Shown here: piece by piece, positions 8,659 to 30,450 of the stretch
How the letters are laid out: every line of letters begins with the position of its first letter
Numbering within the stretch: the first letter of the stretch is position 1
Assembly: GCF_000953825.1 (NCBI RefSeq)
Contig: NZ_BBUL01000088.1
Coordinates: 1-64,000, forward strand
DNA: 64,000 bases
Reading direction: 5' to 3'
Source of the DNA: Cellvibrio sp. OA-2007
GTDB taxonomy: Bacteria > Pseudomonadota > Gammaproteobacteria > Pseudomonadales > Cellvibrionaceae
Made by a program: the position numbers and the translations under genes
The notes under the pieces: model-generated
Seen by the model: only the letters and a program-made list of their open reading frames with translations
Databases searched by the model: none
What the model was told of the DNA's origin: nothing

Positions 8659-8673
8659 CGCGGAGTAATTACC

Positions 8674-9525: not shown

Positions 9526-9571
9526 CACGCAAAACAATCACCCAGCGGCACCATCCAGCACAACTAACCGC

Positions 9572-9604
9572 AACGCCAGCATCGCCAATGCTGGCGTTTT
9601 TTAT
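9572..9604 (+). terminator. Rho-independent terminator after nrtAB
   Basis: An 11-bp stem, AACGCCAGCAT / ATGCTGGCGTT, with a 5-base loop is followed by a run of T (TTTTTT). It ends the two-gene nrtAB unit 45 bases after the permease stop. Confidence 0.9.
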
Positions 9605-9674
9605 GCGCACTGATCTTGCTGTTGAAACCTTGCGTATACTGTAATAACACTTAACTGAATCAAGGCACCCATCC

Positions 9675-10205: not shown

Positions 10206-10222
10206 CTCCCCAGGTCATAACA

Positions 10223-11395: not shown

Positions 11396-11900
11396 CGGGG
11401 GCTGAATACTCCACTTGAGTATAGGGGGTATTTGGCGCTTGTGCGCGTCACAAATGTCACGCTAACTCCGCGAGATACAAGCCTTTTTTTCTTTTCACTT
11501 AACTTCGCTGGCCGATCTAAAACACACATGGTTGCACGCACTGAATGATATCAACGCACCGCTGCGCAAAATAAGTGCATGTGTATTCAGCTTCGGCAAC
11601 TTCACGTGCTCACTCGCAACACAGATTCTGGCACCAAAAAAAAGCAGTAAGTTTTTTCATGACCCAGCAGCGCGCAAAACCAAATAAAAAGCCACGATAA
11701 GTGCAAAAACACTGCGCCGTTAAAGTGCATTGCCGATCTTGGCACAGTGTTTGAATAAGCCATTGTGTACTGATTCATTACACCACCATTTTTTACACAC
11801 ACTTTTATTTTTACGTTTTGTTTTTTTAGAGCAGCCACCCAGACAAATTTTTACTTTATTTTTTTGCAGATAATTTTTTAATTGATGCCAGGAGTAAGAG
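11396..11900. other. 505-base non-coding region upstream of the second nrt operon
   Basis: Divergent spacer between the TPR lipoprotein and nrtA2. It is AT-rich in its last 150 bases. It carries a weaker sigma-54-like element at 11739-11756 (TTGGCACAGTGTTTGAAT), with a consensus -24 box but GA instead of GC at -12. No supported small gene was seen. Confidence 0.45.
11739..11756 (+). promoter_or_regulatory. Possible sigma-54 promoter of the second nrt operon
   Basis: TTGGCAC at the -24 position is a perfect consensus half. The -12 half reads TTGAA, not TTGCA. Spacing between the two halves is correct. The predicted start is about 130 bases before nrtA2, similar to the layout at the first set. 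The call is tentative because the invariant GC of the -12 box is GA. Confidence 0.35.
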
Positions 11901-13307: not shown

Positions 13308-13389
13308 TTAGCAGTTTTGTTAAGCATGTAAAAACATAAGCCCGCTTATTGTTGCACATACAATTAAGCGGGCATGCAGAGGAAAGATT

Positions 13390-14367: not shown

Positions 14368-14453
14368 CCACTGCATGATTGGGTACGTTAATTGCCTATT
14401 AAATCCTGAGCACCTTATTTTATTTATTTCAGTTTGTTACAGAGGAATCCAGC

Positions 14454-15314
14454 ATGAGCCAGATCCATTTGGAATTAAGTAGAGTCGGCATTGAATTTCC
14501 CACCCCCAAAGGCCCCTTTTGCGCGCTGCAAAATGTGGATTTAAAAATTAAAAAAGGTGAATTTGTTTCGCTGATTGGCCACTCCGGCTGCGGCAAATCT
14601 ACTGTGTTAAATATTGTCGCTGGTTTGTATCAAGCAACCACTGGCGGCGTAATGCTAAATGGCCGCGAAGTTAACGAGCCAGGCCCCGAGCGCGCGGTGG
14701 TATTCCAAAACCATTCGCTGCTGCCTTGGCTGACCGCCTATGAAAATGTAGAGCTAGGCGTAAAACGTGTATTTAAAGGCAGAAAAACCAAAGCAGAAAT
14801 GCGCGAGTGGATTGAGCACAATCTGGAATTAGTGCACATGACCCACGCACTGCACAAACGCCCCGATGAATTATCCGGCGGTATGAAACAGCGTGTAGGT
14901 ATCGCCCGCGCACTGGCGATGGAGCCGCAGGTATTGCTGATGGATGAACCCTTCGGCGCACTGGATGCCCTCACCCGCGCGCACCTGCAAGACTCGCTGA
15001 TGGAAATCCAAAACGAATTGGGCAACACCGTCATTATGATTACCCATGATGTTGATGAAGCGGTGCTGCTCTCTGACCGCATAGTGATGATGACCAACGG
15101 CCCCGCCGCGACAGTGGGCGAAATATTGGATGTGCCCCTCGCGCGCCCGCGCAATCGTCTGGAGCTGGCCGACAATGCCGAGTACAACCACTATCGCTCA
15201 TCGGTGTTGCGCTTTTTGTATGAGAAGCAAAAAAAAATTGAATCGATCGACGCCAAACGCGCCGAAAAAAAACAGGATAAAGGCACTGCAGAAAAATCCA
15301 AAAGCGTCGCCTGA
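14454..15314 (+). CDS. nrtD: Nitrate-type ABC transporter ATP-binding protein
   Basis: 286 residues. All ABC ATPase motifs are present: Walker A GHSGCGKST (about residue 43), Q-loop VVFQNHSLLPWL, signature LSGGMKQRVG, Walker B LLMDEPFGALDA and switch His in MITHDVDEA. The closest types are NrtC/NrtD/NasD of nitrate uptake. It has no C-terminal binding-protein domain, so it is the short (NrtD-like) type. The C-terminal tail is Lys/Glu/Ala-rich. It is the last gene of the operon, before the terminator at 15381, and could also energise the ATPase-less set upstream. Confidence 0.88.
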   Translation: MSQIHLELSRVGIEFPTPKGPFCALQNVDLKIKKGEFVSLIGHSGCGKSTVLNIVAGLYQATTGGVMLNGREVNEPGPERAVVFQNHSLLPWLTAYENVELGVKRVFKGRKTKAEMREWIEHNLELVHMTHALHKRPDELSGGMKQRVGIARALAMEPQVLLMDEPFGALDALTRAHLQDSLMEIQNELGNTVIMITHDVDEAVLLSDRIVMMTNGPAATVGEILDVPLARPRNRLELADNAEYNHYRSSVLRFLYEKQKKIESIDAKRAEKKQDKGTAEKSKSVA

Positions 15315-15590: not shown

Positions 15591-17402
15591 ATGCTGCAAC
15601 TCATCCACAACCCAGCTCATTTCTCCAGCTCTCCAACGCAATCAGCTGCCCCCGCAGCAACCCCCGAACTAACCACCACCTATGCCGACTTGCTTGTGGA
15701 TTACCTCGCCCAAATGGGTATAGATAAGGTATTCGGCGTGCCGGGCGGGGCGATTGAACCCCTGCTTAACTCATTGGCACGCAGCGAGCGCAATGGAGGG
15801 CCGCGTTTGGTCGTTGCGCGCCATGAATGCGGCGCTGCCTTTATGGCTGATGGCTACGCGCGCGAAAGCGGCAAAATGGGTGTGGTCTGCGCCACTACTG
15901 GCCCCGGCGCCACCAACCTGATTACCGGTGTCGCCTCGGCACTGGCCGATGAAGTGCCTATGCTGGTAATTACCGCGCAAACGCCACTGCCCAAGTTTGG
16001 TAAACGCGCACTGCAGGAATCCAGCTGCACCGCTATAGATACTGTGGGCATGTTCCGCTACGTCACCCAATTTAATACCCTGGTATCTCATCACGAACAG
16101 CTTGAGAGCAAATTGGTCTCGGCAATCATGGCGGCGCATCGCAAACCCAACGGTCCTGTACATATCAGTATTCCCGCCGATGTGTTGCGCGCACCAGCAA
16201 CCATCAATGCCCATATCCACAGCGACTTGTTAGTGCACGATTTCGCCATGGCCGACGATTCCGCCATTGCCCGCCTGTGCGAAAAGCTCGGCAAGGTCGA
16301 TAACATCGTGATGTATATCGGCAATGGCGTAGGCAAAGCCAGCAAACAAATCATGGAGTTTATCGAGCTGACCGGCGCGGCATTTGTCACTGGCCCTATG
16401 GGCAAAACCTGGGTCGATGAACATCACCCGCTCTATCGCGGTGTATTTGGTTTTGCTGGGCACGAGAGCGCTAAAAATCTGCTGCAAAACCCGGCGGTGA
16501 ACTTAATTCTGGCGGTGGGTACCGAGCTGGGCGAGCTGGGCACTAGCGGCTGGAAAGACGATTTGCTCAACACCAAGCTGGTGCATATCGACTCATCAAT
16601 CGAACACTTCACCCGCTCGCCCATGGCGAACCTGCATGTGTTCGGCAATATCGATGTGATCTTTGATCGTTTGGTAAAGAGCGTGCACGAAGCGCGCAAA
16701 TGGGGGCGCCGCTGGCAGACACTGCCAGGTGCGGCCACTGAAAATGCCAACGGCGGTTTTTTCACGCTCAACGATGCTGAAAAATGCTATTCCAACGCCA
16801 GCCCGGTAAAGCCCCAGCGGTTGATGTCCCACCTCTCCCGCGCGCTACCCGACAACACTCGCATATTTGTCGATGCCGGTAACGGCTGGTCTTGGGCGAC
16901 CCACTACCTGACGCGCGCAAATAGTGAAGGTTTGTATCGTATCGCCATGGGCTACGGCTCCATGGCCTGGTCGATTGGCGCCGCGATTGGATCTGCCATT
17001 GCCAATCCCGGTGCACCTACCTTATGTATTGTGGGCGATGGCTCTTATTTGATGAGCGCACAGGAAATCACCGTCGCTGCCCAGCAAAAGCTGCCTGTGG
17101 TTTTTTTAGTATTAAATGATTCAGCGATGGGCATGGTGATGCACGGGCAAATGCTCGGGCAGCAAGAATCTATCGGCTGGGAATTAAATGATGTCAATTA
17201 CGCACTCATGGCGCAGGCGATGGGCGTAGACGGCATAGTGATCGATTCACCAGAACAATTAGACGCGCTGGATTACGCCGCATTATTTCAAAAAAATGGC
17301 CCCACCCTGCTTGATGTCCGCATCGACCGCAATGAAATTCCACCCATGGGCGACCGCATCAAAGGTCTGGCGGTAAATGGCTCGGCAACACCGGGAGGTT
17401 AA
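15591..17402 (+). CDS. Thiamine-diphosphate-dependent enzyme, acetolactate synthase-like
   Basis: 603 residues with the three ThDP-enzyme domains. The N-terminal Pyr domain has the essential Glu in RHECGAAFMADGYAR (about residue 80) and GPGATNLITGVASAL. A central nucleotide-type domain follows. The C-terminal PP domain has the ThDP/Mg motif GDGSYLMSAQEIT...LVLND. These enzymes decarboxylate 2-oxo acids and ligate or reduce the carbanion. The family also holds acetolactate synthase, glyoxylate carboligase and oxalyl-CoA decarboxylase. No regulatory ilvH/ilvN subunit gene is adjacent, so a catabolic role is more likely than branched-chain amino-acid synthesis. The reaction cannot be assigned from sequence alone. 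Confidence 0.82.
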   Translation: MLQLIHNPAHFSSSPTQSAAPAATPELTTTYADLLVDYLAQMGIDKVFGVPGGAIEPLLNSLARSERNGGPRLVVARHECGAAFMADGYARESGKMGVVCATTGPGATNLITGVASALADEVPMLVITAQTPLPKFGKRALQESSCTAIDTVGMFRYVTQFNTLVSHHEQLESKLVSAIMAAHRKPNGPVHISIPADVLRAPATINAHIHSDLLVHDFAMADDSAIARLCEKLGKVDNIVMYIGNGVGKASKQIMEFIELTGAAFVTGPMGKTWVDEHHPLYRGVFGFAGHESAKNLLQNPAVNLILAVGTELGELGTSGWKDDLLNTKLVHIDSSIEHFTRSPMANLHVFGNIDVIFDRLVKSVHEARKWGRRWQTLPGAATENANGGFFTLNDAEKCYSNASPVKPQRLMSHLSRALPDNTRIFVDAGNGWSWATHYLTRANSEGLYRIAMGYGSMAWSIGAAIGSAIANPGAPTLCIVGDGSYLMSAQEITVAAQQKLPVVFLVLNDSAMGMVMHGQMLGQQESIGWELNDVNYALMAQAMGVDGIVIDSPEQLDALDYAALFQKNGPTLLDVRIDRNEIPPMGDRIKGLAVNGSATPGG

Positions 17403-17511: not shown

Positions 17512-20049
17512 GTGTTAACTGATAACACCCAATCCAATCAATCCAGCTCGCCTATTAACCTCCTTATCGTTAATAACGACGCCCACGCGATGACTGCCAT
17601 TACCGGTAGTTTACGTTCGGCTGGGCTCAATAAGTACACCTGCGTCGACTCCGCACAACAAGCGCTACGCGCCCTGCGCCAACAGCCAGTTGATGTATTG
17701 ATTGTAGATGTTGACACCGCCGATATGGATGGCTGGCGCTTATCGCGTTTGGTGCGCAGCGGCATTCTAGAATGCCGCGCTGATCTGCCGATTATTATTA
17801 TCGCCAGCACTTGGTGTGAGCGCATCGCCGAAGTCACCGCGCGCGAATATGGCATCAATCAACTACTCCCCCTCGATCACATCAAACAACTGCCTGCCGC
17901 CGTGCAAAAACTGGCTCATCGGCAACACAACAGCACTGACAAACCGCGCTTGCTGGTAGTAGAGGATGAACCCGACACCGCCGATTTGATCAAACGCGTA
18001 CTCTCGCCCTCGTTTGAGATTGAAGTTGCCTACGAAGGTGACACCGGCCTGCGCGCCTGGGTACAACGACGACACGATTTGGTTTTGCTCGATGTGATGC
18101 TGCCCAAATTATCCGGACGCGACATCTTAATTGAAATTGGCAGTATTGATCCCAACCAGCCGGTGGTGATTATGACGGCGCATACCACCATCGATCAGGC
18201 CGAAGAATTAATGCTGCTCGGTGCGGTCGATTTTTTACCTAAACCATTTCGCGCGGAACAGTTGCGTAAAGTCTGTGATATCGCCATTCATCGCGATGAT
18301 TTTCTAGTGAGCAACGCGCAATTTGCCGCGCGCGTGAAATCCCTGCAAGAACGCGAGCTGGCCTACCGCCAACTCTACCAAAACCACCATCAACTGCTCG
18401 AAGATTTACAGTCAGTGGTGATGGAGCTGGATGAGCATTTTGTAATCTGCTACCTCAATCGCGCATGGGAAACCATGATGGGCTACCCCATTAGCGAATG
18501 CATCGGCCAGCCACTGGAAAATTTTATCGCACCAGAAGATGTAGCGCAGTTTTCGCTGTTCCAAAATAAAATTCGCAAAGCCCTGCTACAGAATAAGCCC
18601 TGCCCCGAAATTGAAATTTGCCTGAGCAATAATCGCCACCAGAAATTATGGGCACAATTAAAAATCAGCCGCTCCAGCAATAGCAAACAACAGGGCAATT
18701 TGACTGTTTGTTTGGACAACATCACCGAGCGGCGCGAATCGCAAGAGCAGCTTAAATATTTAGCCATGCACGATTCGCTCACCGGTTTGTACAACCGTCA
18801 CTTTTTTGAAACCACACTTGCACAATTAACCGCCGACTCGGTGCGCAATAAACGCCAGCACGCGCTGGTGTACTTGGATCTGGATCACTTTAAAGTTATT
18901 AACGATACCTTCGGCCATCAAAAAGGCGATGAAGTACTGCGCGAAATGTCGCACCTGTTGAGTAAACGCATTCGCGGCGCCGATATCCTCTGCCGTTTAG
19001 GCGGCGATGAATTTGCCATCTTATTGCGCGACATTCACAGCACCGAAGCACACGAGTTTGCCCGTAGCATTCAGCAGATTATTAGCGAGTTCAGTTTTCA
19101 AATGCATGAACAGCGGGTCAACCTCGGCAGTAGTATCGGCCTCACACTAATTGATGGTAGTACCAATAATGCGGAAGAGCACTTGATGCGCGCCGATATA
19201 GCGCTCTATGTCGCCAAAGGGCGCGGGCGCAATTTAATTCATCAATACAATCCGCTCGACAGTGAAAGCGATGAGCTGCGCCACTCGATTAATATGTCGC
19301 AAAAAGTACGCGCCGCAATCGCCGATGACCGGATGACGCTCTACTTTCAGCCTATTTTTGATATCAAAAAGAATAAAGTATCCTATTACGAAGCACTGGT
19401 TCGCCTGGTAGAAACCGATGGCAAAGTTATTGGCCCCAATAATTTTATTCCCGCACTGGAAGCGGCGGGTGAAATGCATTTGTTAGATCGCTGGATTATT
19501 AAACTAGCCATACGCAACTTAAAAGCGCACCCTGAACTAAACCATATCGCCATTAATCTCTCAGCCCAGGCGTTTAAAGATGAAAATCTGGTGCCCACCA
19601 TTCTGGAGAATTTAAAAGAGACGGAAGTAGACCCCAAGCGCATCACCTTTGAACTCACTGAAAGTGCAAGCTTGTTTAACCTGCACATCACCCAGCGGGT
19701 GATTGCCGAACTACACAAGTTGGGCTGTAGCTTTTCAGTGGATGATTTTGGTTCTGGTTTTAGTAGTTTTGCTTACTTGAAAGATTTACCGGCGGATTAC
19801 ATTAAACTCGATGGTTCGTTTATTCAAAACTTACACCGCGATACGATTGACCAAACGCTAGTGCGCTCCATGATTCAGGTCATTCAGGCTCTGGGCAAAA
19901 AAGCGGTGGCAGAATATGTAGAGAACGAGGCCATTCTCGACATTTTAAAAACCATGGGCGTAGATTTTGTGCAGGGCTATCACATCGGGCATCCGCTGCC
20001 AATCACCCAACTATTTACCGAACAAACTATTAGCAAAACCTCACGCTAA
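17512..20049 (+). CDS. Dual-receiver response regulator with PAS, GGDEF and EAL domains
   Basis: 845 residues starting with GTG 17512. Domain order: REC1 (about 15-135), REC2 (145-265), PAS (285-405), GGDEF (415-580) and EAL (590-840). REC1 has the acceptor-type Asp in LIVDVDTADMDGW but LLPLDH where a conserved Lys is expected, so it may be degenerate. REC2 is canonical (VVEDEPD, LLDVMLP, PKPF). Both catalytic signatures look intact: RLGGDEFAIL for c-di-GMP synthesis and YYEALVRLVE plus DDFGSGFSS for hydrolysis. It is probably a bifunctional or switchable c-di-GMP enzyme driven by a partner kinase. None is adjacent. The gene starts 110 bases after the ThDP enzyme. Confidence 0.92.
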   Translation: MLTDNTQSNQSSSPINLLIVNNDAHAMTAITGSLRSAGLNKYTCVDSAQQALRALRQQPVDVLIVDVDTADMDGWRLSRLVRSGILECRADLPIIIIASTWCERIAEVTAREYGINQLLPLDHIKQLPAAVQKLAHRQHNSTDKPRLLVVEDEPDTADLIKRVLSPSFEIEVAYEGDTGLRAWVQRRHDLVLLDVMLPKLSGRDILIEIGSIDPNQPVVIMTAHTTIDQAEELMLLGAVDFLPKPFRAEQLRKVCDIAIHRDDFLVSNAQFAARVKSLQERELAYRQLYQNHHQLLEDLQSVVMELDEHFVICYLNRAWETMMGYPISECIGQPLENFIAPEDVAQFSLFQNKIRKALLQNKPCPEIEICLSNNRHQKLWAQLKISRSSNSKQQGNLTVCLDNITERRESQEQLKYLAMHDSLTGLYNRHFFETTLAQLTADSVRNKRQHALVYLDLDHFKVINDTFGHQKGDEVLREMSHLLSKRIRGADILCRLGGDEFAILLRDIHSTEAHEFARSIQQIISEFSFQMHEQRVNLGSSIGLTLIDGSTNNAEEHLMRADIALYVAKGRGRNLIHQYNPLDSESDELRHSINMSQKVRAAIADDRMTLYFQPIFDIKKNKVSYYEALVRLVETDGKVIGPNNFIPALEAAGEMHLLDRWIIKLAIRNLKAHPELNHIAINLSAQAFKDENLVPTILENLKETEVDPKRITFELTESASLFNLHITQRVIAELHKLGCSFSVDDFGSGFSSFAYLKDLPADYIKLDGSFIQNLHRDTIDQTLVRSMIQVIQALGKKAVAEYVENEAILDILKTMGVDFVQGYHIGHPLPITQLFTEQTISKTSR

Positions 20050-20126: not shown

Positions 20127-20849
20127 TCAAGTCACATTCACACCACCGTCAACAGCCCAAATGGCACCGGTGGTATAACTTGACTCCAACTGCGCGACAA
20201 TCACTTCCGCCACTTCATCGGCACGACCGTAGCGAGCCAATGGAATAGTGGTTTCCATATGGGCTTTTACTGCCGCTTGCGTTTGTTCATCAAGACCTAG
20301 TTTGGTAATAATCGGCGTATCAATTGCGCCCGGTGCAACAGCATTAATACGCACCCCAATAGGGGCAAATTCAATCGCCAAACTTTTGGTGCACGCCTCT
20401 AATGCACCCTTGGTTGCCGCATAAAGCGCCGCATTCGCCAAACCATTATTGACCACGGCCGACGACACATTGGTAATACTGCCGCTCGCTTTCTGTAGCG
20501 CCGGCAAAACACCTTTAATTAAATCCAAAGGGCCGCGAACATTGGTATTCATAAACTCGTCAAAGTCGGCACTTGTGCAATAGGCAAGCGGAGCAAAACG
20601 CGCAATTGCTGCGTTGTTAACTAACGCACTCAGCGATTTCCCCTCAAAGTGCCCTGCCAATTTAATTACGTCACTGGCACAGCCCATATCCGCCACTATG
20701 CCTTTTACTCCCAATTCCGCTGCAGCCCGCTCGACACGCTCACTATTGCGCCCACAAATAGTCACATCGTAACCCTTGGCTTTTAACAGTTTTGCCGTCG
20801 CATAACCAATACCGGAATTGCCGCCAGTAACTAACGCTGTTTTTTGCAT
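20127..20849 (-). CDS. Short-chain dehydrogenase/reductase
   Basis: 240 residues from ATG 20849. A longer open frame reaches 20960 but the extra residues come from a simple repeat and overlap the previous gene. The classical SDR landmarks are present: TGGNSGIG cofactor loop (residues 8-15), NNAAIA, catalytic Ser in TNVSSAVVN and YAATKGALE (Tyr-x-x-x-Lys), then PGAIDTPI. It is a cytosolic NAD(P)(H)-dependent oxidoreductase of unknown substrate. It is the last gene of a minus-strand run behind the two citrate-synthase-like genes and the TonB receptor, so it probably acts on a metabolite of that set. Confidence 0.88.
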   Translation of the reverse strand: MQKTALVTGGNSGIGYATAKLLKAKGYDVTICGRNSERVERAAAELGVKGIVADMGCASDVIKLAGHFEGKSLSALVNNAAIARFAPLAYCTSADFDEFMNTNVRGPLDLIKGVLPALQKASGSITNVSSAVVNNGLANAALYAATKGALEACTKSLAIEFAPIGVRINAVAPGAIDTPIITKLGLDEQTQAAVKAHMETTIPLARYGRADEVAEVIVAQLESSYTTGAIWAVDGGVNVT

Positions 20850-20876
20850 AATGATTTCTCTGTTGAAAAAATTGCG

Positions 20877-20905
20877 GAAAAGAAAAAGAAAAAGAAAAAG
20901 AAAAA
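20877..20905. repeat. Hexanucleotide simple repeat (GAAAAA)n
   Basis: Four perfect GAAAAA units in a row (20882-20905), with a further partial unit before them. The tract lies in the 61-base gap between the citrate-synthase-like gene and the SDR. Unit-number changes would alter the distance from the previous gene's stop to the SDR ribosome-binding site without changing frame. Confidence 0.85.
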
Positions 20906-20910
20906 TGGAA

Positions 20911-21753
20911 TTAATCAGGAACCGAGCGAATAGCAACACCTTGATAATCAATATCATCACAGCGCAGCGGTAAAAATGTATCAGGCGCTTGATGGTAGGT
21001 ATCCAAATAACAAGCCGTTACACCGCTGGCGACCAGCGTAGTAAATATTTGATATACCTCATCGGGACAAAAATCATGATCCGCCATTACAGCCGATACA
21101 TAACCATTAATATTCATTCCCTCGTCATATTTTTCCTGCAAAACACGCTCAATTTCCATTGCCAATTGCAGATGCGGGCCGGTTGGAAAACCATAAGCTT
21201 CCGCGATGCTTGCCATGGCACGAATGCGTTCATCACCTTTCGCAATAGGGCGAATATACCCAATAATTAACGGCTTACCACCACGCGCAGGTACACTTGC
21301 CACTATCTGTTCAGCCGATAGCCCTTGCTGATGACTCACCAAGGCAGCCTGAATAAATTGCACACCCTCCTTTAATGGATAGACGCCATAGGTGCGCGAA
21401 TCTGTCGCCAGCACGCCCATAGCGGTAGCTGCAATTGCCGATGCGCGCGCACTACCAGCAAGCGCCCCAATTTGATTGCACCAAATACGCGGATCAGGCC
21501 AGCTCAAGCAGGAGTAACCCACCTCTACCCAATGAGCAAATTCCGGGGAAACCATTTTTCCGGTCGCGTTTAATACCACAATCTGGAAGTAAGATTTTTT
21601 TCCTACCAAATCATCCATCATGGAATAGCCATGACTAAAAACGCCTTTACCGGGAAACCATCCTCCTGTCTTGCTGACTATTTTCCCGCGGCGGGCATCA
21701 AGTATTTTAATGATGCGCTGATCGCTAAATGTTTTTTGATTCACGCTAATCAC
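20911..21753 (-). CDS. Citrate-synthase-superfamily protein, second of a pair
   Basis: 280 residues. Start GTG 21753 overlaps the stop of the preceding gene by 4 bases (GTGA), so translation is coupled. The C-terminal half has a citrate-synthase/citryl-CoA-lyase pattern: GYIRPIAKGDERIRAM, where GFGHPxxxxxDPR is usual, and MNINGYVSAVMADHDF, where NVDG... is usual. The position of the second catalytic His reads Arg, and that of the catalytic Asp reads Asn. The HGG His is not evident (TYGVYPLKEG). It is much shorter than normal citrate synthase (about 430 residues). I infer a partner subunit, possibly CoA- or acid-binding, without the standard chemistry. Family membership is by eye. Confidence 0.6.
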   Translation of the reverse strand: MISVNQKTFSDQRIIKILDARRGKIVSKTGGWFPGKGVFSHGYSMMDDLVGKKSYFQIVVLNATGKMVSPEFAHWVEVGYSCLSWPDPRIWCNQIGALAGSARASAIAATAMGVLATDSRTYGVYPLKEGVQFIQAALVSHQQGLSAEQIVASVPARGGKPLIIGYIRPIAKGDERIRAMASIAEAYGFPTGPHLQLAMEIERVLQEKYDEGMNINGYVSAVMADHDFCPDEVYQIFTTLVASGVTACYLDTYHQAPDTFLPLRCDDIDYQGVAIRSVPD

Positions 21754-22544
21754 CGCTCAATAAAATAATTTTCATCGGAGACAAACGGCATGGCGGTGAT
21801 AGGTTTATTTGCTAACTCTAGCCCATGAGCAACCAAACCCGGCGCGCCCATTAATTGATACAAACAAACACCCGCTTTAGGCTGAAAGCCCAAATCCGAT
21901 AAGACCGCAGCGGCAACTCCGGGCATTAACCATCCCATACCATTTGCTGCAAGCGCACCACTCAGCTGGTTGCCCCAATGCAAGGCTTTACCTGCACCGG
22001 GTAGTTGCGCGAGCTGCGCGGCATGCTTGCATGCAAGCAGATCAACACCGCCATAATAAGCGCCGAACCCAGGAATAGATGTTGAGGATTGCAGATGATC
22101 CACCGCACACGCAGTAGCATCGGTATTGTGTTGCTTGCGCAAAAAACGCATCGCGTCTTCCACTAAGCCGCCGCCGTGATGATCGCCGCCGAGCAGCGCG
22201 GCGCCGATCGGGAGTATGTGAGCAGGCTCGGTTTTGCCAATACCTGCATTCATCGCGGCGCGGGTAGCCGGATGACGCGGGCCGGGATTGATGAGCGCAA
22301 TCATCAGTTGTTGCAAAATTTGAGTTTCTTCCGGCGCTGGCAACTCACCGCGAAATAACAAATAAAACACATCGGTAAACGATCGCTTTGCCATCAACTC
22401 ATTGAGATCATAACCATGGCAAAATGCCGCACTGGCGATGTAGGGATTATCATTGCTGGGTTGCTCAAGATAAATTTTCGTACTGGCTCGCTCGGTAAAA
22501 GCTTCATTTCTGCTGCGCACCTGATTGGTTTTTTGCTCTTGCAT
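21750..22544 (-). CDS. Citrate-synthase-superfamily protein, first of a pair
   Basis: 264 residues from ATG 22544, which has GGGA 8 bases upstream. The N-terminal part matches the small/large-domain start of citrate synthase (FCHGYDLNELMAKRSFTDVFYLLFRGELP). Then come GDHHGGGLVEDAMRFL (the HGG His is kept), IPGFGAYYGGVD (GFGH in active enzymes, so the His is replaced by Ala), NGMGWLMPGVAAAVLSDLGF (the catalytic Asp region lacks Asp) and APGLVAHGLELANKP. It overlaps the next gene by 4 bases and follows the TonB receptor by 35 bases. Probably it forms a heteromer with its neighbour. The reaction, if any, is unknown. Confidence 0.62.
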   Translation of the reverse strand: MQEQKTNQVRSRNEAFTERASTKIYLEQPSNDNPYIASAAFCHGYDLNELMAKRSFTDVFYLLFRGELPAPEETQILQQLMIALINPGPRHPATRAAMNAGIGKTEPAHILPIGAALLGGDHHGGGLVEDAMRFLRKQHNTDATACAVDHLQSSTSIPGFGAYYGGVDLLACKHAAQLAQLPGAGKALHWGNQLSGALAANGMGWLMPGVAAAVLSDLGFQPKAGVCLYQLMGAPGLVAHGLELANKPITAMPFVSDENYFIER

Positions 22545-22579
22545 TAGCACAGTCCCGCGCTGATTAGGAATATGTAGAA

Positions 22580-24772
22580 TTAATTGAACCTATAACTAAA
22601 CTCCACCCAAATACTGCGCGATTCCAACAAATAATCTTCTGGAATTTCACCGCTACTCGGCTCGCGCGCCTCTGTATCTGCGACATTGCGCACCGCAATC
22701 ATCAAATCCAGATTGGGTAAAAAATTAGCTTTGCGCACATTCATATCCCACAAGCTGTAATTGGCTATTGGGCTGCGGCTATCACCTGGAGTTTGAAGAG
22801 TGGGGTTCGCCTGACGACGGCTGCGCTCGCCCACCCACGCATATTGATTATGCAAATACCACTCGGGCAAGAATTCCCAATTCATCATTAATTTGAATTG
22901 TTTTGCTGGCGCCTCATGCACAGGAAAGCCAGTACTTTGATCCTGTGCATTTTGATAGGAGTAGCTGGAGGCGAGCGAGAAAGTATCAAGCGGGCGCCAG
23001 TTTAGCTCTAGCTCATAACCATCACCTTGTTGATCGCCGGCATTTTTAGCAATTTTGTTGGCAAGGTCAGTGGGAACAAATTCAATTAAATCTGAAGCGC
23101 GATAATCAAATAATGTCAGATTGGTTCCAAGACGTTCAGAGATATAAAAATTAAATGACAACTCGGTGGTGGCGATGCGCTCTGCGCCTACAGCAGAGTT
23201 CCCCAAAGATACGGGATTATTTTTACTCGCCTTTTCAGTAAACGACGGCGCGCGAAATGCACGGCCATGCATTAATTTAGTCGTTAGACGTTCATTGGTG
23301 GCCCAAACGAGAGCCACGCGCGGATTGGTGGTAGAACCAAAGTCCGAGTAATGATCGTAGCGCACTCCGCTGGTCAATTGCAGGTCACTCGTAATCTGCC
23401 ACTCATCTTGCAGTGATAAATAGCCGATAGAACGGGAGTAGTTGGATAAAAATGCGTACTCTGTACCGCTCACATCTATCAAGGTTCCATCAACCATCAT
23501 CTCTGATCCGGTAAGCACTCCAGGGCCAAAGTTTTTGCGCTCACGCGGTGTGGCCGATTGTTCCCGCCCACCCACTGCGCTACGAACCTTATGCGAATCC
23601 CAGCCATTAAAGATGGCGACATAATCCAATTGCGCATCTTCCGTTGTTCCACCCGGATTGCCAATTAAGCCATCAGAAAATAATGTCCAACTCACATTAG
23701 GTTGGGAGAAATCAATATTTCCCTGATTGCCAGTCAATTTGCTAATGGGCAATACCGCACCACCAGGAAACAAAGTAAACATAGATTCCTGGTCATAGCG
23801 GAAATAACTAAGCCGCACGCTCTTGTCCCAATCGCTATTGTCGTTATCAAAACGGTAAGTAAAATCGGCCATCCATAAATCGCTGTCATCACTACCGGCG
23901 GCATCAAGCACCTGCGCAGCGCCTGCACCAACACCAGCATCCCGCGACAACCAATTCCAAAAATTAAACTGCCATTGCGCACTGCTCAACGCCAAATGCG
24001 TATCTAGCACTTCATAGCGAGTGGATAAACTACCAGGAGCGTGCGAGGCATTGGTTCCTAAAAGGGAATCGAGCGTAGACTGTAAATCTGCACTTACTCT
24101 GCGCTCCTTATCACCGTCCGAGTTTTGGTATGCCATAGTGAATGCAACATCCACAGCGTGCCAATTAGTTGCAGTCTCCAACCACAATTCACGGCTGCCA
24201 AAAGATCCAGAGGTTGCGCCCACGCGAGTTGAATCTATTACTGATGCATCTTTAGTAATAACGTTAATCACCCCCGAAAAAGCATCCGCACCGTAAATTG
24301 CTGAGCCGGGGCCACGAATAACTTCGACGCGCTCAATGCTGGCGGCAGGCAAACGAAACAAAGTGGGCCGCCCGCCCTGAGCGTTGTATTGAACAGGTAT
24401 GCCATTCAACATCAACAAGACATGAGGATTTAAACCGGTATGAATGCCGCGAATGGAATAAACCGAATCCAACCGGCTCAAAGAAGAAATCGAGACATGC
24501 AATCCAGGGACTGTCTCCAGCACCTCATTGAGATTGCGCGCCCCCATGGCAAGAATTTCTTCTGCGGAGATAACTGTCGCTGTCGCTGGTGCACGATCCA
24601 ACGGTGTACTGTTGCCCGTGGCAATAGAGATTTCAATCTGACCCAATTCGGCCAACGAGAGATTATAGAAGTCACCCGAGGAAATAGTATCCCCGGTTTC
24701 AGCACACAGGCTATTTGCCCAAGAGGCAAACACCAACGCCAATAAAGTCGTTCGTATTTTTTTCGCACGCAT
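22580..24772 (-). CDS. TonB-dependent outer-membrane receptor
   Basis: 730 residues with a Sec signal peptide (LLALVFASWANSLCAE). The plug domain lies at about 45-170 (TATVISAEEILAMGARNLNEVLETVPGL, then VRGPGSAIYGADAFSGVINVITKD). A 22-strand-type barrel follows, ending in a C-terminal aromatic (WVEFSYRFN). It is similar in kind to receptors encoded next to YfiR-domain hybrid kinases. That kinase gene lies 207 bases upstream on the same strand. The ligand is unknown. The downstream citrate-synthase-like genes suggest an organic acid or an iron-carboxylate chelate, which is inference. Confidence 0.9.
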   Translation of the reverse strand: MRAKKIRTTLLALVFASWANSLCAETGDTISSGDFYNLSLAELGQIEISIATGNSTPLDRAPATATVISAEEILAMGARNLNEVLETVPGLHVSISSLSRLDSVYSIRGIHTGLNPHVLLMLNGIPVQYNAQGGRPTLFRLPAASIERVEVIRGPGSAIYGADAFSGVINVITKDASVIDSTRVGATSGSFGSRELWLETATNWHAVDVAFTMAYQNSDGDKERRVSADLQSTLDSLLGTNASHAPGSLSTRYEVLDTHLALSSAQWQFNFWNWLSRDAGVGAGAAQVLDAAGSDDSDLWMADFTYRFDNDNSDWDKSVRLSYFRYDQESMFTLFPGGAVLPISKLTGNQGNIDFSQPNVSWTLFSDGLIGNPGGTTEDAQLDYVAIFNGWDSHKVRSAVGGREQSATPRERKNFGPGVLTGSEMMVDGTLIDVSGTEYAFLSNYSRSIGYLSLQDEWQITSDLQLTSGVRYDHYSDFGSTTNPRVALVWATNERLTTKLMHGRAFRAPSFTEKASKNNPVSLGNSAVGAERIATTELSFNFYISERLGTNLTLFDYRASDLIEFVPTDLANKIAKNAGDQQGDGYELELNWRPLDTFSLASSYSYQNAQDQSTGFPVHEAPAKQFKLMMNWEFLPEWYLHNQYAWVGERSRRQANPTLQTPGDSRSPIANYSLWDMNVRKANFLPNLDLMIAVRNVADTEAREPSSGEIPEDYLLESRSIWVEFSYRFN

Positions 24773-24979
24773 AATGACAACCTATTCAACAGAGTTGGTG
24801 TCATTCCGCTGACAATATCACTCAACTTACTGGCAATGTAGACTCGCCACCAAGATACGCCGCAACTAAAAAGCTGATCATCTACAAAGAGGGACTAAGT
24901 ACTTTTAGCACTAAGGATGACTAAAGATAGTTCACCTTTGCATTAAAGCAAAGCGGGAAAATGTGAGTTTCCGTAAAGA

Positions 24980-27373
24980 TCAGGGATTCTTGCGCGGAGC
25001 CAGACGCTCAATAGCCAGCTTGAGCGTTTCGCGTCTGACCGGTTTGGTTAAATATTCTTCCGCCGGTTGGCGATTAAAGCGCTTACGCTCCTCAATCATG
25101 GATATCACAATAACGGGAATATCGCATATATCAGCATCGGCCTTAATTCGCTCAAATAAAATCCAACCGTGCTGATCGGGTAAAAATAAATCAAGCGTTA
25201 TGACATCGGGTTTAATCGATTGAATTAGGCGCCATCCACTTTCGGCATCACTGGCGGTATGGACTTGATAACCCTCTGCGCGAATAGTGCGCGCCATTAT
25301 GTCGAGAAACGCTGGGTCATCATCAATCATCACCACTTGTTCACCCGTTGCAGCGGGAACTAACGGAGCAACAGCAAGTGGTGGTGCATCTTCATCAATA
25401 GCGGGTTGCGTTTGCACTGTCGCAGGCTTCATTGGTAGCGGCAATTCCACAATAAATTTGGCTCCCGCGCCCAACTCGCTTTCAACGCGAATCTTACCGC
25501 CCATCAACTCACACAACTGGCGAGTAATGGACAAGCCCAAACCGCTGCCTTGAAATTTGCGCGTGGTACCCGAGTCGGCCTGCTTAAATGGATCAAAGAT
25601 TGCGACCTGCTGCTCCTGGGATATGCCAATACCTGTATCAGCCACACTGATATAAATTTGCTGCGGTTGATGATAAGCCTTAATTCTCACCTGACCACCG
25701 GGGGCAAACTTAATCGCATTACCCAACAAATTGATCAATATGTGGAGTAGTTTTTCCGGATCGGCCAAGGGCAAAAACTCACCATCATCGGCATCTACTT
25801 GCAGTTGTATAGCATTTTTTTCGGCGAGTGACGTCACTGTTCCAAGTGCCTCATCAACTAGCGTTGATAATTTTACTTCGGTTAAATCCAAATCCATTCG
25901 CCCGGATTCAATTTTAGCCAGATCCAGCACGCCATTAATTAGTTTTAGCAAGCGCTCACTGTTGAGAATAACGCGACTTAAATCTTTCAGATGATGCTCA
26001 TCATCCGCCAGCTTTAACTCTTCAATCACCACTTCGGTATAACCAATGATAGCCTGCAAGGGAGTACGCAACTCATGGCTCATCAAGGATAGGAATTCAC
26101 TTTTGGCTTTACTCGCATCCTCTGCTTTGCGCTTGGCAATGGCGAGCCGGTCGCGGGCTATTTGCAGATCTTGCGTGTGTGCCGCCAAGCGCTGGTTATC
26201 GCGACGCTTGATGGTATAGGCAATCAATACAGTGATAATTAATAGCGCGCCCAAAATCACTGAGCCCCATAAATAGCGCAGTGCCACTTTTTGCGAATCG
26301 ACCAGCTCATCCAAATCTACAATGGCATTTTTTTGTTTGAGGATGGTTTCCTCTTGGGTTTTAATTTTCGAATTTAAATAAGTGAGCCGTTTTTCTCGCG
26401 CATCAATCTCTTGCAAAATCGTACGCAAGTGCGCTTGCTGCGCATCCAATTCTTGAGTGCGCAAATCCACTTCATGCAACAGCGCTTCACGCTCTTGTTT
26501 ACTCGTTTCAATTTGAGTTTGCTGGTCTTGCAGCAGTATTTTTTGTTGTGCAATCAAGGCGTCACTTTTTTCAATGCCCTGATTCAACTCAGCCATTTGC
26601 GCCTGCAAACTGGCGTTCATTGCCTGCTGGGTTTTAATGGCAGTAGTTAATTCATTCAGCGTTTTCTCGCGCCCACGCAATTGTTTTTGCAGCGCAACCA
26701 AAGACGCCTGCCCTTGACGATACAATTTGGCAACATCAATTTCAGTGCCGCCATTCAAAATTAATTCCGGTAAAGGTGTTAAACCGTGATTAATAATATT
26801 GGATTTATTAACTTCAAATTTAAGCCGGTCATTATCGGTAGTAATCAGGTTAATCATCACCAATTGTTTATTATTATAGGACTCAGTCACCAGTAATACC
26901 GGCTTGCCTTCTAGCGCATCATAAATATCCGTTATAGTTTTGGCGTTCACCTTTTCAACATATACCATATGGTATTGCGCGAGGGAGCTCACCCGATTCA
27001 CCTGGGTAACTCGAATGGGTAAATTGCGCAACTTGACTCTATCGCGTAGCACCGCCAGCTCTGCCATTAGCGCAGGATTGTTCGCACCATAAACCGCGAG
27101 ATCGAATGAGGTCATTGTGGCTTGATTGGGCCACTCAATATTTTTAGCGAAGTTGTATAAATAGGAGGCGGTAATTTTTTCTTTGTTGAGCCCCTGCGCC
27201 CATACTGGGCTGGCACTGAGCAGAAGCAAGATGGCAGAGGAAAGTAACGCAAATAGCACTGTCTGCGCCCTGCCCAGCGGTTGCAACCAAGGGCGGCACA
27301 AAACGACGACTGACAGGAAGGTTTTCATTAACATCGGAGTAAGTCTTATCGCTATTTTCAACCACTGAAGCAT
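24980..27373 (-). CDS. Hybrid sensor histidine kinase with periplasmic YfiR (DUF4154) domain
   Basis: 797 residues. A signal peptide or anchor is followed by a YfiR/DUF4154 domain at about 60-205 (TASYLYNFAKNIEWPNQ, VNRVSSLAQYHMVYVEK). A long coiled coil spans 215-365. One membrane helix lies at about 372-392. HisKA has the phospho-His in SLMSHELRTPLQAIIG (about 437). HATPase_c follows with GTGIG- and GSGLGLS-type loops, then a C-terminal REC with Asp in VITLDLFLP. The periplasmic domain senses a signal, possibly relayed by the TonB receptor encoded just downstream. The C-terminal receiver stores the phosphate, but no separate output regulator is adjacent. An internal ATG at 27328 is an alternative start. 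Confidence 0.9.
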   Translation of the reverse strand: MLQWLKIAIRLTPMLMKTFLSVVVLCRPWLQPLGRAQTVLFALLSSAILLLLSASPVWAQGLNKEKITASYLYNFAKNIEWPNQATMTSFDLAVYGANNPALMAELAVLRDRVKLRNLPIRVTQVNRVSSLAQYHMVYVEKVNAKTITDIYDALEGKPVLLVTESYNNKQLVMINLITTDNDRLKFEVNKSNIINHGLTPLPELILNGGTEIDVAKLYRQGQASLVALQKQLRGREKTLNELTTAIKTQQAMNASLQAQMAELNQGIEKSDALIAQQKILLQDQQTQIETSKQEREALLHEVDLRTQELDAQQAHLRTILQEIDAREKRLTYLNSKIKTQEETILKQKNAIVDLDELVDSQKVALRYLWGSVILGALLIITVLIAYTIKRRDNQRLAAHTQDLQIARDRLAIAKRKAEDASKAKSEFLSLMSHELRTPLQAIIGYTEVVIEELKLADDEHHLKDLSRVILNSERLLKLINGVLDLAKIESGRMDLDLTEVKLSTLVDEALGTVTSLAEKNAIQLQVDADDGEFLPLADPEKLLHILINLLGNAIKFAPGGQVRIKAYHQPQQIYISVADTGIGISQEQQVAIFDPFKQADSGTTRKFQGSGLGLSITRQLCELMGGKIRVESELGAGAKFIVELPLPMKPATVQTQPAIDEDAPPLAVAPLVPAATGEQVVMIDDDPAFLDIMARTIRAEGYQVHTASDAESGWRLIQSIKPDVITLDLFLPDQHGWILFERIKADADICDIPVIVISMIEERKRFNRQPAEEYLTKPVRRETLKLAIERLAPRKNP

Positions 27374-27482: not shown

Positions 27483-29000
27483 CTACATATAAGCCTTGGC
27501 AAAGGCTGCCTTAGACTCCTGGATATAACTGCGCACTTTTACCGCATGGGATTCCCAGAGTGCACGATCTTTTTCATCGGTAAAGGGGTTCTGATCTTTG
27601 GCTACCGAGCGATCAAACTTGTCATAAAATGTAATGACCGAAGAGGCAATTTGATTAAACCGCTCTTTAAAGACTTGCGTCTCTTCCATAGTGCCCGTCG
27701 CTTTCATCATGAATTGCACAAATTCCGTATTGGAGCTTGAGTGATTTTGATAGCTCTCAGCCTGCACCAAAAAGTAATTGTTAATTTCTTGTAACGCTGC
27801 GCTGCGCGTAGGCTCATCTTTGCTCAACACGCGATTATAATTTTCTTGCCCACGCCCCATGCCTCCGGCGATTAGTGATTCCTTCAGGTGTTTATCCAAG
27901 TCTTTGCGAAACTTATCCACTTCGCGCTGGATATCGACCAAATCTTTGTCCAGTGCAAGCACCGTATTTAGTTCTTTTTCTACCTCGGTCATAAAGCCTT
28001 CAACTTTAGTGAAGGTTTTCAAGCCATTAGCTTCTGCAAATTTACGCGCCTTGCGGTCAATACCCGCATTCTCGTAGGCGACCTTATCAAATGCAGTGGC
28101 AACAATAGTTTTAAAGGGTTCGGCAAACGCAGCATAAGCGCCTTGTGTCATTACGTTGAGTGTTGCAGTAGCTATATCACCCAAGGGGCGCAAGAGTGAG
28201 TCCATACGCGCTTTTTGCAGTGGCGATGCCACCAAGCGCACATCATTCACTATACCTTTAAACGTTTGATAGCCGAGTGGATTGGCCATCTTGCCGCGTT
28301 CAGAGGTTGCTAACACCAGAGTCACACTGGAGTAAATGCCATTGGCATACTCCAAATACTGGCGCTGCACATCAATTTGCGCAGCGTAGTTTTTACCCAG
28401 CGTGCGCAATGCATCGGCTTGCACCTGATAGTTTTTGTCGTCACGCAATTTGCCCAACACTTCAGCAATCACTTTTTCCTGATTTTTTTGCAGTGCAGTG
28501 TCCAGCAAAATTTTTTCCAAGCTCAAGTCATCGATCCAAGCCTGACCATTGGTCACCTCAAAATCAAGGCGTAGATATTTTTTGCCCGGATCGTCAATTG
28601 AAATACGCTTTGCATGATATTCGGCTGAATCATTGCTGCCCTGTATCTGCCCCACCCGCACCCAACCGCTATCGCTATTTTGGTTGCTCGCGACGAGAAC
28701 ATTGATTTTATATTGCGCCGCAGGCGATGAGGTTTTGATCCAAAACTCCAATGTGCCCTGCTCGCTTAAATGAGTACGCAAACGCACCGACGCCTCACCT
28801 TGCTCAAACTGTAATGCCCCAGTGCCCGTGCGCGCCTGCTCTTTGGAAAAAGTTGCGCCATACATCAGCGCCCACTTTTTTTGCTCTGCGTCATTTTCAA
28901 ATCCGCTCTTAAAAATCACCGACTTTTGCTGCGCCCCGGCAAAAGCAGCCGTCAAGCTGATGGTGGATACAACTAAAACACTCGCGATTTTTTTCAACAT
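27483..29000 (-). CDS. Secreted protein with N-terminal jelly-roll-like domain, function unknown
   Basis: 505 residues from ATG 29000, where the signal peptide begins (MLKKIASVLVVSTISLTAAFAGA). Upstream in-frame codons to 29027 use TTG and are less likely. Residues about 30-170 resemble a carbohydrate-binding jelly roll (FKSGFENDAEQKKWAL, GTLEFWIKTSS, YLRLDFEVTNGQAWIDDLSLEK). The remaining 330 residues are helical, charged and of no family I recognise. They include a long helix with alternating Lys/Asp/Leu (LDKDLVDIQREVDKFRKDLDKHL). It is likely periplasmic or surface exposed. It follows the degenerate deacetylase-like gene on the same strand and ends at its own terminator. Confidence 0.65.
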   Translation of the reverse strand: MLKKIASVLVVSTISLTAAFAGAQQKSVIFKSGFENDAEQKKWALMYGATFSKEQARTGTGALQFEQGEASVRLRTHLSEQGTLEFWIKTSSPAAQYKINVLVASNQNSDSGWVRVGQIQGSNDSAEYHAKRISIDDPGKKYLRLDFEVTNGQAWIDDLSLEKILLDTALQKNQEKVIAEVLGKLRDDKNYQVQADALRTLGKNYAAQIDVQRQYLEYANGIYSSVTLVLATSERGKMANPLGYQTFKGIVNDVRLVASPLQKARMDSLLRPLGDIATATLNVMTQGAYAAFAEPFKTIVATAFDKVAYENAGIDRKARKFAEANGLKTFTKVEGFMTEVEKELNTVLALDKDLVDIQREVDKFRKDLDKHLKESLIAGGMGRGQENYNRVLSKDEPTRSAALQEINNYFLVQAESYQNHSSSNTEFVQFMMKATGTMEETQVFKERFNQIASSVITFYDKFDRSVAKDQNPFTDEKDRALWESHAVKVRSYIQESKAAFAKAYM

Positions 29001-29072
29001 GTTGATCTCGTAGCTCTTCATCATCAATCGTGGTTAACAGTAAACATAAATTTCAACAAGCCATTGCCAGTT

Positions 29073-30005
29073 CTATTCAACTAGCCCTGGGACTCTAGTC
29101 TGCAAGAAAGAATCGACCATTGTTTTGCGCTCCCCCAAGACACGTGCATAAACAACACGCTCATCGCGCAGGCGTGTTATGGAATTTAAATAGTTATTCG
29201 CCCCCCAGCGGTTGGCTGCAATCGGGTTGGCAATCGGGTCATTCATGGCGCGCTCAGCGGCGATCATTGTCCAACCCTGCTCGTGCAAGCGATCTACCAG
29301 GGCAACAATAAAATAGGCAGCCAAATCATTTTCTTGCAATACCAGCACTTGCCTTGGCGAATAACCCAACAGGTTAAACGCTTTGGCATCCTGCTGCGCA
29401 AGCGACTGCGCAATAAAATCGACATAGGCATCTTCCAGTGTGGCCATATTCACTGGGCGATTAGCGCGAATTTTTTTCTGATACAACTGGTCCAGATATT
29501 GATCTACCCCGCGCATAGGGTTTATACCGGTAAATGCAGGTTGATAACCGCGCGCCTGCAAAAAATTCGCCAGCCCATTTTGAAGATTCACATCGCCGTA
29601 TTCGTGTAGATAAGAAAAATGAACATGTTTTTTATAACCGCGATAAGCCTGCAGCACCCGATTAGCTTTAAGGATGCCAACTTCGTAAGCATAGAGATCG
29701 CTTTTGGTTACCAAACTGTGGCCATGCCCGGCGTTTACCAATAGGTGCCCTTTATCGCTGTAAAGAGCCAAACGCGCTTTGTCTTTTTGATCAATACCTT
29801 TGGTTTTAATTAAAAACATCGCTTGCGGAACACCTGCTGTTGCCAAATTTCGCACCAGCATTTGTGAACGCGCCATAGCATCCAGCGAGGTGGACGTTTG
29901 CAATGTGTGATCAAATGCAATGACTACTTCTCGCGCGTTAACCGCCCCGGAAGTAGCCATGAGACCAATCCAACACAAACTACCGAGCAACCAATTTTTC
30001 AACAC
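29073..30005 (-). CDS. Exported polysaccharide-deacetylase-like protein, degenerate motifs
   Basis: 310 residues with a Sec signal peptide (LLGSLCWIGLMATSGAVNA). The start of the mature domain (EVVIAFDHTLQTSTSLDAMA...LATAGVPQAMFLI) and LVNAGHGHSLVTKSDLYAYEV follow the layout of NodB-type polysaccharide deacetylases. The usual TFDDGP and NHTxxH metal motifs are altered to AFDHT and NAGHGH. The C-terminal half is not typical of the family. It may be a non-catalytic relative or may use a different metal site. It is probably co-transcribed with the VOC gene (37 bases upstream) and the jelly-roll-like gene downstream. Confidence 0.5.
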   Translation of the reverse strand: MLKNWLLGSLCWIGLMATSGAVNAREVVIAFDHTLQTSTSLDAMARSQMLVRNLATAGVPQAMFLIKTKGIDQKDKARLALYSDKGHLLVNAGHGHSLVTKSDLYAYEVGILKANRVLQAYRGYKKHVHFSYLHEYGDVNLQNGLANFLQARGYQPAFTGINPMRGVDQYLDQLYQKKIRANRPVNMATLEDAYVDFIAQSLAQQDAKAFNLLGYSPRQVLVLQENDLAAYFIVALVDRLHEQGWTMIAAERAMNDPIANPIAANRWGANNYLNSITRLRDERVVYARVLGERKTMVDSFLQTRVPGLVE

Positions 30006-30042
30006 AGGCTTTTCTCATGTAAAAAAGTTATTGGGTAGAACC

Positions 30043-30450
30043 TTACTCAGGTAACTCATACAGCTCCAACGGTAAACCGTCTGGATCCTGAAAAAATGTA
30101 AACCGCTTTAAGGTGTACTCGTCAATACGCACCGGCTCCACATTAATCTGGTGAGACGCTAACCAGGCGATATATTGATCCAGGTCGCGCACCACAAATG
30201 CCAGATGACGCAAACCACAGGCCTCAGGTTGCGATGGGCGTGCCGGCGGATTGGGAAAGGAAAACAATTCCAGCTGCGTGCCATCTGGTAAAGCCAAATC
30301 CAACTTCCACGAGGCGCGCGCCGCGCGATAATGCTCTGCAATAATCTGCAACCCTAAAACATCGACGTAAAAGTGTTTGGATTTTTCATAATCCACACAG
30401 ATCAGTGCAACATGGTGAACTGCTTGTAAAACCGGCGCGCCAGACGTCAT
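30043..30450 (-). CDS. VOC-family metalloprotein (glyoxalase-I-like)
   Basis: 135 residues, one complete VOC module of two beta-alpha-beta-beta-beta units. Metal-ligand positions are visible as His in VHHVALICVDYEKSKHFYVDVLGL, Glu in TQLELFSFP, His in LRHLAFVVRDLD and Glu in DPDGLPLELYE. This pattern matches the small SMU1112c/YaeR-type (GloA2) proteins. They bind a divalent metal, but their substrate is not known. True glyoxalase I activity cannot be claimed. It is the first gene of a possible three-gene minus-strand group. Confidence 0.85.
   Translation of the reverse strand: MTSGAPVLQAVHHVALICVDYEKSKHFYVDVLGLQIIAEHYRAARASWKLDLALPDGTQLELFSFPNPPARPSQPEACGLRHLAFVVRDLDQYIAWLASHQINVEPVRIDEYTLKRFTFFQDPDGLPLELYELPE

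Follow-up and report, generated by a model that had tools for sequence, protein, structure and literature searches.

Which function would bring two divergent citrate synthase-like genes together with a TonB-dependent receptor and a sensor kinase? The question is raised by a locus of Cellvibrio sp. OA-2007 (assembly GCF_000953825.1, contig NZ_BBUL01000088.1), of which positions 1 to 64,000 were analysed and are called the window here. In a first-pass annotation of the window, five genes (a YfiR-domain hybrid histidine kinase, the TonB receptor, the two citrate synthase-like proteins, designated CS1 and CS2, and a short-chain dehydrogenase/reductase, SDR) had been read as a possible system that senses and imports a carboxylate or metal-carboxylate and processes it by aldol-type or CoA chemistry. 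The five genes do lie on the minus strand, with the domains named for them, and the 4-nt overlap of the CS1 and CS2 reading frames is confirmed. Comparative genomics indicates, however, that a thiamine pyrophosphate (TPP)-dependent enzyme and a GGDEF-EAL regulator encoded outside the span of these five genes are central to the system, and the chances appear evenly divided that the cluster makes, instead of degrading, a small acyloin- or lactone-type molecule that would be sensed via the TonB receptor and cyclic di-GMP (c-di-GMP).

Conservation and linkage of the gene cluster

An alignment of CS2 scanned against 84,980 species genomes returned 211 relatives, the best 80 of which were kept as loci. 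By record title, the relatives span Cellvibrio, Teredinibacter, Gallionellaceae, Desulfuromonadales, Desulfobulbaceae, Colwellia and Rheinheimera, and the closest CS2 in a named genome is that of Cellvibrio sp. UBA7671 (89% identical). CS1 and CS2 are neighbours on one strand in 79 of the 80 loci (two CS hits are short pieces at contig ends), and a TonB receptor of the window's family is present in 73. In 43 loci the sequence reaches at least 8 kb before CS2 and at least 7.5 kb after it; these contain CS1 (all 43), the TonB receptor (41), the TPP enzyme (40, scoring 301 to 1146 bits), a kinase (36), a GGDEF-EAL-type protein (32) and an SDR of the window's type (6), the kinase and GGDEF counts being matches to common domains. 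Clustering into families over all 80 loci placed the GGDEF-EAL protein in 43, a binding protein in 28, its kinase in 24, and the window's kinase family and the SDR in 15 each. The core of the system is the TPP enzyme, CS1, CS2 and the receptor; the SDR is accessory, and the kinase family found in the window is one among several sensors that replace one another. Conservation of the citrate synthase-like pair with receptor and kinase thus extends to other genomes, and the pair and the receptor belong to the core of a coherent system, but the five-gene grouping took in an accessory SDR and a kinase family of limited occurrence and missed the TPP enzyme and the GGDEF-EAL protein.

Three of the 43 loci (L059, L060 and L129) have no TPP gene near the CS genes. 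In each case one is found elsewhere in the genome (88, 88 and 53% identical, respectively), and in all three of these split-cluster genomes the distant TPP gene adjoins a GGDEF-EAL-type gene that runs off the end of the stretch. The two of the 43 loci without the window's receptor family (L101 and L105) have another TonB family beside the TPP gene, which also occurs in L041.

Linkage of the gene set is far above chance. In an order-level sample of 244 genomes, strong matches to CS1 (E of 1e-17 or better) were counted in 34 genomes and matches to the TPP enzyme (cut-off 1e-100) in 37, with both in 32 (Fisher's exact test, 2e-32, which is not a true probability because the genomes are related); the two CS1 genomes below the TPP cut-off nonetheless carry a TPP gene in the locus. 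At an E of 1e-3, CS1 matches are found in 61 genomes, of which the remaining 27 were taken, by score alone, as generic citrate synthases or citryl-CoA lyases. CS1 is missing from five of the TPP genomes: in three (G141, G164 and G186, the last with a second TPP copy) the contig ends within the receptor gene, one (G181) is the ketosynthase case described below, and the fifth is G051. The window's receptor family (cut-off 1e-80) is present in 30 of the 34 CS1-positive genomes. In a phylum-level sample, where the TPP enzyme was sought in 239 genomes and CS2 in 398, the 10 genomes with the TPP enzyme (that of the window included) are the same 10 that have strong CS2 matches, only the 10 strongest of the 34 CS2-positive genomes being counted. 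Over 51 loci, the four core families show correlated protein distances (Mantel r of 0.32 to 0.76, with none of 2000 permutations as high), those of the receptor with those of the enzymes at r of 0.56 to 0.63.

The first-pass annotation had not recognised the combination of genes, and the set is apparently undescribed: no published description was found in a search of the literature outside most subscription journals, and the accessible part of PMC13380032 contains nothing on this kind of locus.

A citryl-CoA lyase fold without the catalytic aspartate

AlphaFold models of CS1 and CS2 (pLDDT 94.0 and 89.6, respectively) both have citryl-CoA lyase 6hxp as their best PDB match in Foldseek, with probability 1.00. 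The sequences themselves are distant from known families: Pfam detects Citrate_synt over only residues 43-82 of CS1 (40 residues, E of 6.8e-9, score 35.7 versus a cut-off of 27) and has no match to CS2, and the NCBIfam models nearest to both, those of citryl-CoA lyase, score far below cut-off (86.7 versus 212 for CS1, 46.9 versus 245 for CS2). Together, the models and the nearest NCBIfam families bear out the earlier assignment of the pair to the citrate synthase superfamily.

The catalytic aspartate of these enzymes (D541 in M. concilii citryl-CoA lyase, mutated in 6znw, and D1026 in human ACLY, both positions being taken from the mutations in PDB titles) aligns with N216 of CS2 and P210 of CS1, and aspartate occupies that position in none of 44 CS2 sequences and none of 40 CS1 sequences. 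By the features tested, neither CS1 nor CS2 is a citryl-CoA lyase or a citrate synthase, despite the shared fold. CS2 has many invariant residues (S84, P86, W91, N93, Y122, R168, P169, D174, E175, R176 and N214) and the conserved motifs SWPDxRxWxN, DSxxYG and GYxRPxxxGDER; the invariant residues perhaps form a rebuilt pocket. The polar invariants of CS1 are few (E29, N35, Y47 and R92). The constant adjacency of CS1 and CS2, together with this uneven conservation, suggests that they may form a heteromer with a single working site. No natural fusion of the two was found among the ten strong CS2 matches of the phylum-level sample, which have reading frames of 267 to 296 aa.

The TPP enzyme and a ketosynthase in place of the pair

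Among solved structures, the TPP enzyme is nearest to BbmA (300 bits), followed by CsmA (267 bits); acetolactate synthase scores 213 bits. A family profile (A3, made from 14 cluster members) matches at 1e-100 only BbmA (491 bits; also a BbmA mutant) and CsmA (411 bits). The glycine at position 484 of BbmA is kept in the cluster enzymes (G519), and the two acetolactate synthases shown have glutamine or tryptophan there. In the available part of PMC12395478, CsmA and "BpmA", which is taken to be the BbmA of the PDB, are given as homologues of the furanolide-pathway acyloin synthase CybE, which couples two alpha-keto acids. The TPP enzyme is a putative CybE-like acyloin synthase, a likeness drawn by proxy from profile scores to BbmA and CsmA, with CybE compared by its description only.

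A single locus, L163, has the gene order TPP enzyme, 316-aa protein resembling 3-oxoacyl-acyl carrier protein (ACP) synthase III (KAS III), TonB receptor, binding protein and kinase, in which the KAS III-like protein sits in the place of CS1 and CS2. By an alignment read by eye, this protein keeps the cysteine, histidine and asparagine of the KAS III catalytic triad. Identity of the L163 TPP enzyme to those of its family, where 51 of 112 genomes gave a match, reaches 72%, and CS1 and CS2 take the place of KAS III in the other 29 of the 30 loci fetched from that family. The exchange of the CS pair for KAS III within a retained gene order suggests that the two are functionally equivalent. The furanolide synthase that acts after CybE, CybF, is described as a 3-oxoacyl-ACP synthase in the accessible part of PMC8777810, and the CybF cascade uses acyl-CoA according to that of PMC13288894. 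At an E of 1e-8, neither the window nor any of the other 101 loci gave a further KAS III match, a result of little weight since nearly all of these were picked by their CS genes, and among the 244 order-level genomes nothing but L163 scored above 91 bits.

Tailoring genes, transport and sensing

Tailoring genes were tallied over 95 distinct loci (101 stretches, six contigs being duplicated). A sulfotransferase lies within 2 kb of CS2 in eight of them, three times with an adenylylsulfate (APS) kinase, and an O-methyltransferase in four; neither was matched at a greater distance from CS2 in these loci. The 13 families present in at least six of the 80 loci include no inner-membrane transporter and no CoA ligase, the conserved binding proteins occur without a conserved permease, and no N-terminal hydrophobic stretch is seen in the TPP enzyme, CS1, CS2 or SDR. 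Because of the tailoring genes, the lack of a conserved importer or CoA ligase and the cytoplasmic appearance of the enzymes, synthesis is favoured over breakdown, the enzymes being read as a cytoplasmic pathway that would make a small, decorated molecule. Import of a carboxylate or metal-carboxylate followed by aldol-type or CoA chemistry, as first proposed, gains no support: the catalytic aspartate is lost from both subunits, neither a transporter nor a ligase is among those 13 families, and the partners of the pair, from the CybE-like synthase to the sulfotransferases, APS kinase and O-methyltransferases, point to biosynthesis.

The periplasmic sensors vary among loci. In the window, a hybrid kinase carries a fused YfiR domain, which lies between hydrophobic segments (near residues 35 and 363); other loci pair kinases, some of them fused to GGDEF-EAL, with ABC_sub_bind, Phosphonate-bd or SBP-like proteins. 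The GGDEF-EAL protein of the window keeps the GGDEF, I-site RxxD, EAL and DDFG motifs. The N-terminus of the receptor resembles a signal peptide, as judged by eye, and Pfam found only the Plug and barrel domains in it, with no STN signalling domain. A ligand brought only to a periplasmic sensor would need no inner-membrane importer, which fits the gene content.

Proposed function and its alternatives

From the gene content, the linkage, the predicted folds and the lost residues, we infer a reaction, a product, its release and its detection as follows. The TPP enzyme, judging from its kinship to CybE, CsmA and BbmA, would couple two alpha-keto acids to an alpha-hydroxy-beta-keto acid or acyloin. 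The CS1/CS2 heteromer might then combine the acyloin with an acyl-CoA and close or trim it to a small lactone-like product, as the KAS III-type CybF does in furanolide biosynthesis, a role proposed because of the fold, the loss of canonical catalysis and the one in-place swap for KAS III. In some lineages the product could be tailored by the SDR, by a sulfotransferase with APS kinase or by an O-methyltransferase. Once released, it would return to the periplasm through the dedicated TonB receptor and be detected by the YfiR kinase, or elsewhere by a binding protein and its kinase, and phosphotransfer would set the receiver-GGDEF-EAL protein and hence c-di-GMP. That the whole constitutes a new signalling system, in which a self-made acyloin-derived molecule (butenolide-like, sometimes sulfated or methylated) from a CybE-type TPP enzyme and a CS-fold heteromer of new chemistry would pass its own TonB receptor into the periplasm and be read out as c-di-GMP, is put forward tentatively, at rather less than even confidence.

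Several observations weigh against this proposal. The tailoring genes are missing from 83 of the 95 loci, the window included. No exporter is found among the conserved families, and neither are the CoA ligase CybC and the ammonia lyase CybB, which are likewise not among the 17 window genes scanned. In seven of the 40 TPP-bearing loci the TPP enzyme (301 to 320 bits) is as far from that of the window as BbmA is, which makes for a wide set. Only one genome shows the KAS III swap. In L125, CS2 (8866-9690, plus strand) adjoins the receptor with no detectable CS1, the only such case of the 80, and the receptor occurs without a TPP match in six of the 244 order-level genomes, in five of which the locus was fetched and contained no CS genes. 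The folds of the sensors differ among lineages, which is odd for a single ligand, and it is from linkage only that receptor and sensors are taken to detect the cluster's own product.

Uptake and catabolism, in which the receptor imports an acyloin, hydroxy-acid or lactone that the TPP enzyme, CS1/CS2 and SDR degrade as lyases while the kinase senses the nutrient, is an unlikely explanation. TonB receptors and periplasmic sensors are usual for nutrients, both TPP enzymes and citryl-CoA lyase-type enzymes can act as lyases, and an NMT1-type ABC importer adjoins the TPP gene in the window, as gene sizes suggest for L053 and L061 also. Against this, no inner-membrane transporter and no CoA ligase or transferase is among the families present in at least six of the 80 loci; the sulfotransferase, APS kinase and O-methyltransferase are synthetic, KAS III replaces the CS pair in L163, and the nearest relatives of the TPP enzyme are described as synthases in the part of the literature available. 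Making and sensing a molecule is likelier than importing and metabolizing one.

Two other explanations retain biosynthesis. The enzymes may produce a chelator, a small alpha-hydroxy-keto or lactone compound that leaves the cell and comes back with its metal via the receptor, which is compatible with a biosynthetic cluster and with the fact that TonB receptors mostly carry metal chelates; the NCBIfam matches of the window's receptor include haem and siderophore receptors, although all 25 shown are below cut-off. No exporter or metal-handling gene is among the conserved families, no Fur-box-like site was found in the window at up to 3 mismatches (a weak test), and the sensor kinase and c-di-GMP output are left unexplained. 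A metallophore is improbable. It is slightly less probable again that the cluster makes an unrelated effector such as an antimicrobial, and that receptor and kinase respond separately to the environment and only control its synthesis. Variation of the sensors among lineages would agree with this, and furanolides are antibiotic according to the available part of PMC12395478, but the receptor family tracks the enzymes both in occurrence and in the distances given above, which suggests a shared ligand.

If the cluster does make and sense its own small molecule, it would contain a CS-fold heteromer with new chemistry, able to replace a ketosynthase-type enzyme, and would tie small-molecule biosynthesis to TonB-dependent sensing and c-di-GMP from Cellvibrio to the Gallionellaceae, Desulfuromonadales and Desulfobulbaceae. 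It would also assign a testable product class to this gene set, for whose marker CS2 the collection holds 211 relatives.

Other features of the window and of related loci

The genes discussed above are listed in Table 1. The start of the SDR is most likely the ATG at 20849, giving 240 aa, versus 20960 as first read; its closest relatives in L058 and L062 have 242 and 240 aa, and others up to 267 aa.

Table 1. Genes of the proposed system in the window
Gene product	Position	Strand	Evidence
TPP (thiamine diphosphate, ThDP)-dependent acyloin synthase-like enzyme, 603 aa, CybE/CsmA/BbmA-like	15591..17402	+	Pfam TPP_enzyme N, M, C
GGDEF-EAL regulator (two receiver domains, PAS, GGDEF, EAL)	17512..20049	+	Pfam
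SDR, 240 aa, accessory reductase	20127..20849	-	Pfam adh_short
CS2, citryl-CoA lyase-fold subunit	20911..21753	-	predicted model, best PDB match 6hxp
CS1, citryl-CoA lyase-fold subunit, more degenerate than CS2	21750..22550	-	predicted model, best PDB match 6hxp
TonB-dependent receptor of specific family	22580..24772	-	Pfam Plug and TonB barrel
Hybrid histidine kinase, putative sensor	24980..27373	-	Pfam DUF4154/YfiR, HisKA, HATPase, receiver

Directly beyond the kinase is a gene for BdpA (BAR-domain-like protein A; 27483-29027, minus strand; NCBIfam 787 bits, cut-off 750), which with its neighbours at 29073-30450 is present in five of the 80 loci. The plus strand of the window encodes two NMT1_2-type ABC transporter sets (7330-9525 and 11901-15314), the second of which directly precedes the TPP gene; a similar arrangement in the Cellvibrio-type loci L053 and L061 was judged from gene sizes, only the window's copy having been scanned with Pfam. 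A lipid A acyltransferase-like gene lies upstream of the TPP gene in four loci (L055, L056, L058 and L062). The lipid A acyltransferase, BdpA, YaeR and the ABC transporter were each rejected as parts of the system, being confined to a few close relatives.

Clusters L066, L079, L086, L088 and L098 belong to Desulfuromonadales and, in the case of L088, to a metagenome-assembled genome labelled Chloroflexi, which suggests wide transfer or a binning error. The Electrothrix cluster L118 encloses a gene (12780-13601, plus strand) for a partial nonribosomal peptide synthetase condensation-domain-like protein (Pfam, 35 bits). L172 (contig C234 of genome G142, 7917-13593) has a receptor of the same broad family with an ABC_sub_bind protein and a hybrid kinase and no TPP or CS gene in the stretch, and is perhaps a listener without a synthase. 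Three pattern matches on viral contigs include no relative; plasmids gave no CS2 and no KAS III match, and the CS1 search there returned only generic citryl-CoA lyase-like genes (24 to 36% identical).

Comparison with known systems

CS1 and CS2 share their predicted fold with citryl-CoA lyase, the C-terminal module of ATP-citrate lyase and citrate synthase, but differ from citryl-CoA lyase and citrate synthase in being two divergent paralogues, in lacking the catalytic aspartate in all 84 sequences examined and in scoring far below the NCBIfam cut-offs. On the sensing side, the window's receptor is unlike those of FecA-type TonB signalling (FecIR) in having no STN domain. The YfiBNR system, in which YfiR-type sensing controls c-di-GMP, likewise links a periplasmic YfiR domain to a c-di-GMP output; here, YfiR is fused to a hybrid kinase and accompanied by a TonB receptor and biosynthetic enzymes, and other sensors take its place in most relatives.

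Alpha-hydroxyketone signalling (CqsA/LqsA with CqsS/LqsS) would share with the proposed system an alpha-hydroxyketone-type signal read by a histidine kinase. CqsA and LqsA are pyridoxal phosphate (PLP) enzymes. The present cluster instead has a TPP enzyme and the CS pair, together with a TonB receptor and a GGDEF-EAL protein as output, and no PLP enzyme family was detected in the 17 scanned genes of the window or in those representatives of conserved neighbour families that were scanned.

The cluster resembles the furanolide (cyanobacterin, cyb) pathway in that CsmA and BbmA, reported homologues of CybE, are the closest to its TPP enzyme and in that a KAS III-type second enzyme adjoins this enzyme in L163. 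A CybF-type KAS III is not in the window's locus, and stands beside the TPP gene in only this one of 30 family loci; the second enzyme is usually the CS-fold pair, and CybB and CybC are not conserved. Unlike the cyb genes, the enzymes here are joined to a TonB receptor, a sensor kinase and a c-di-GMP output.

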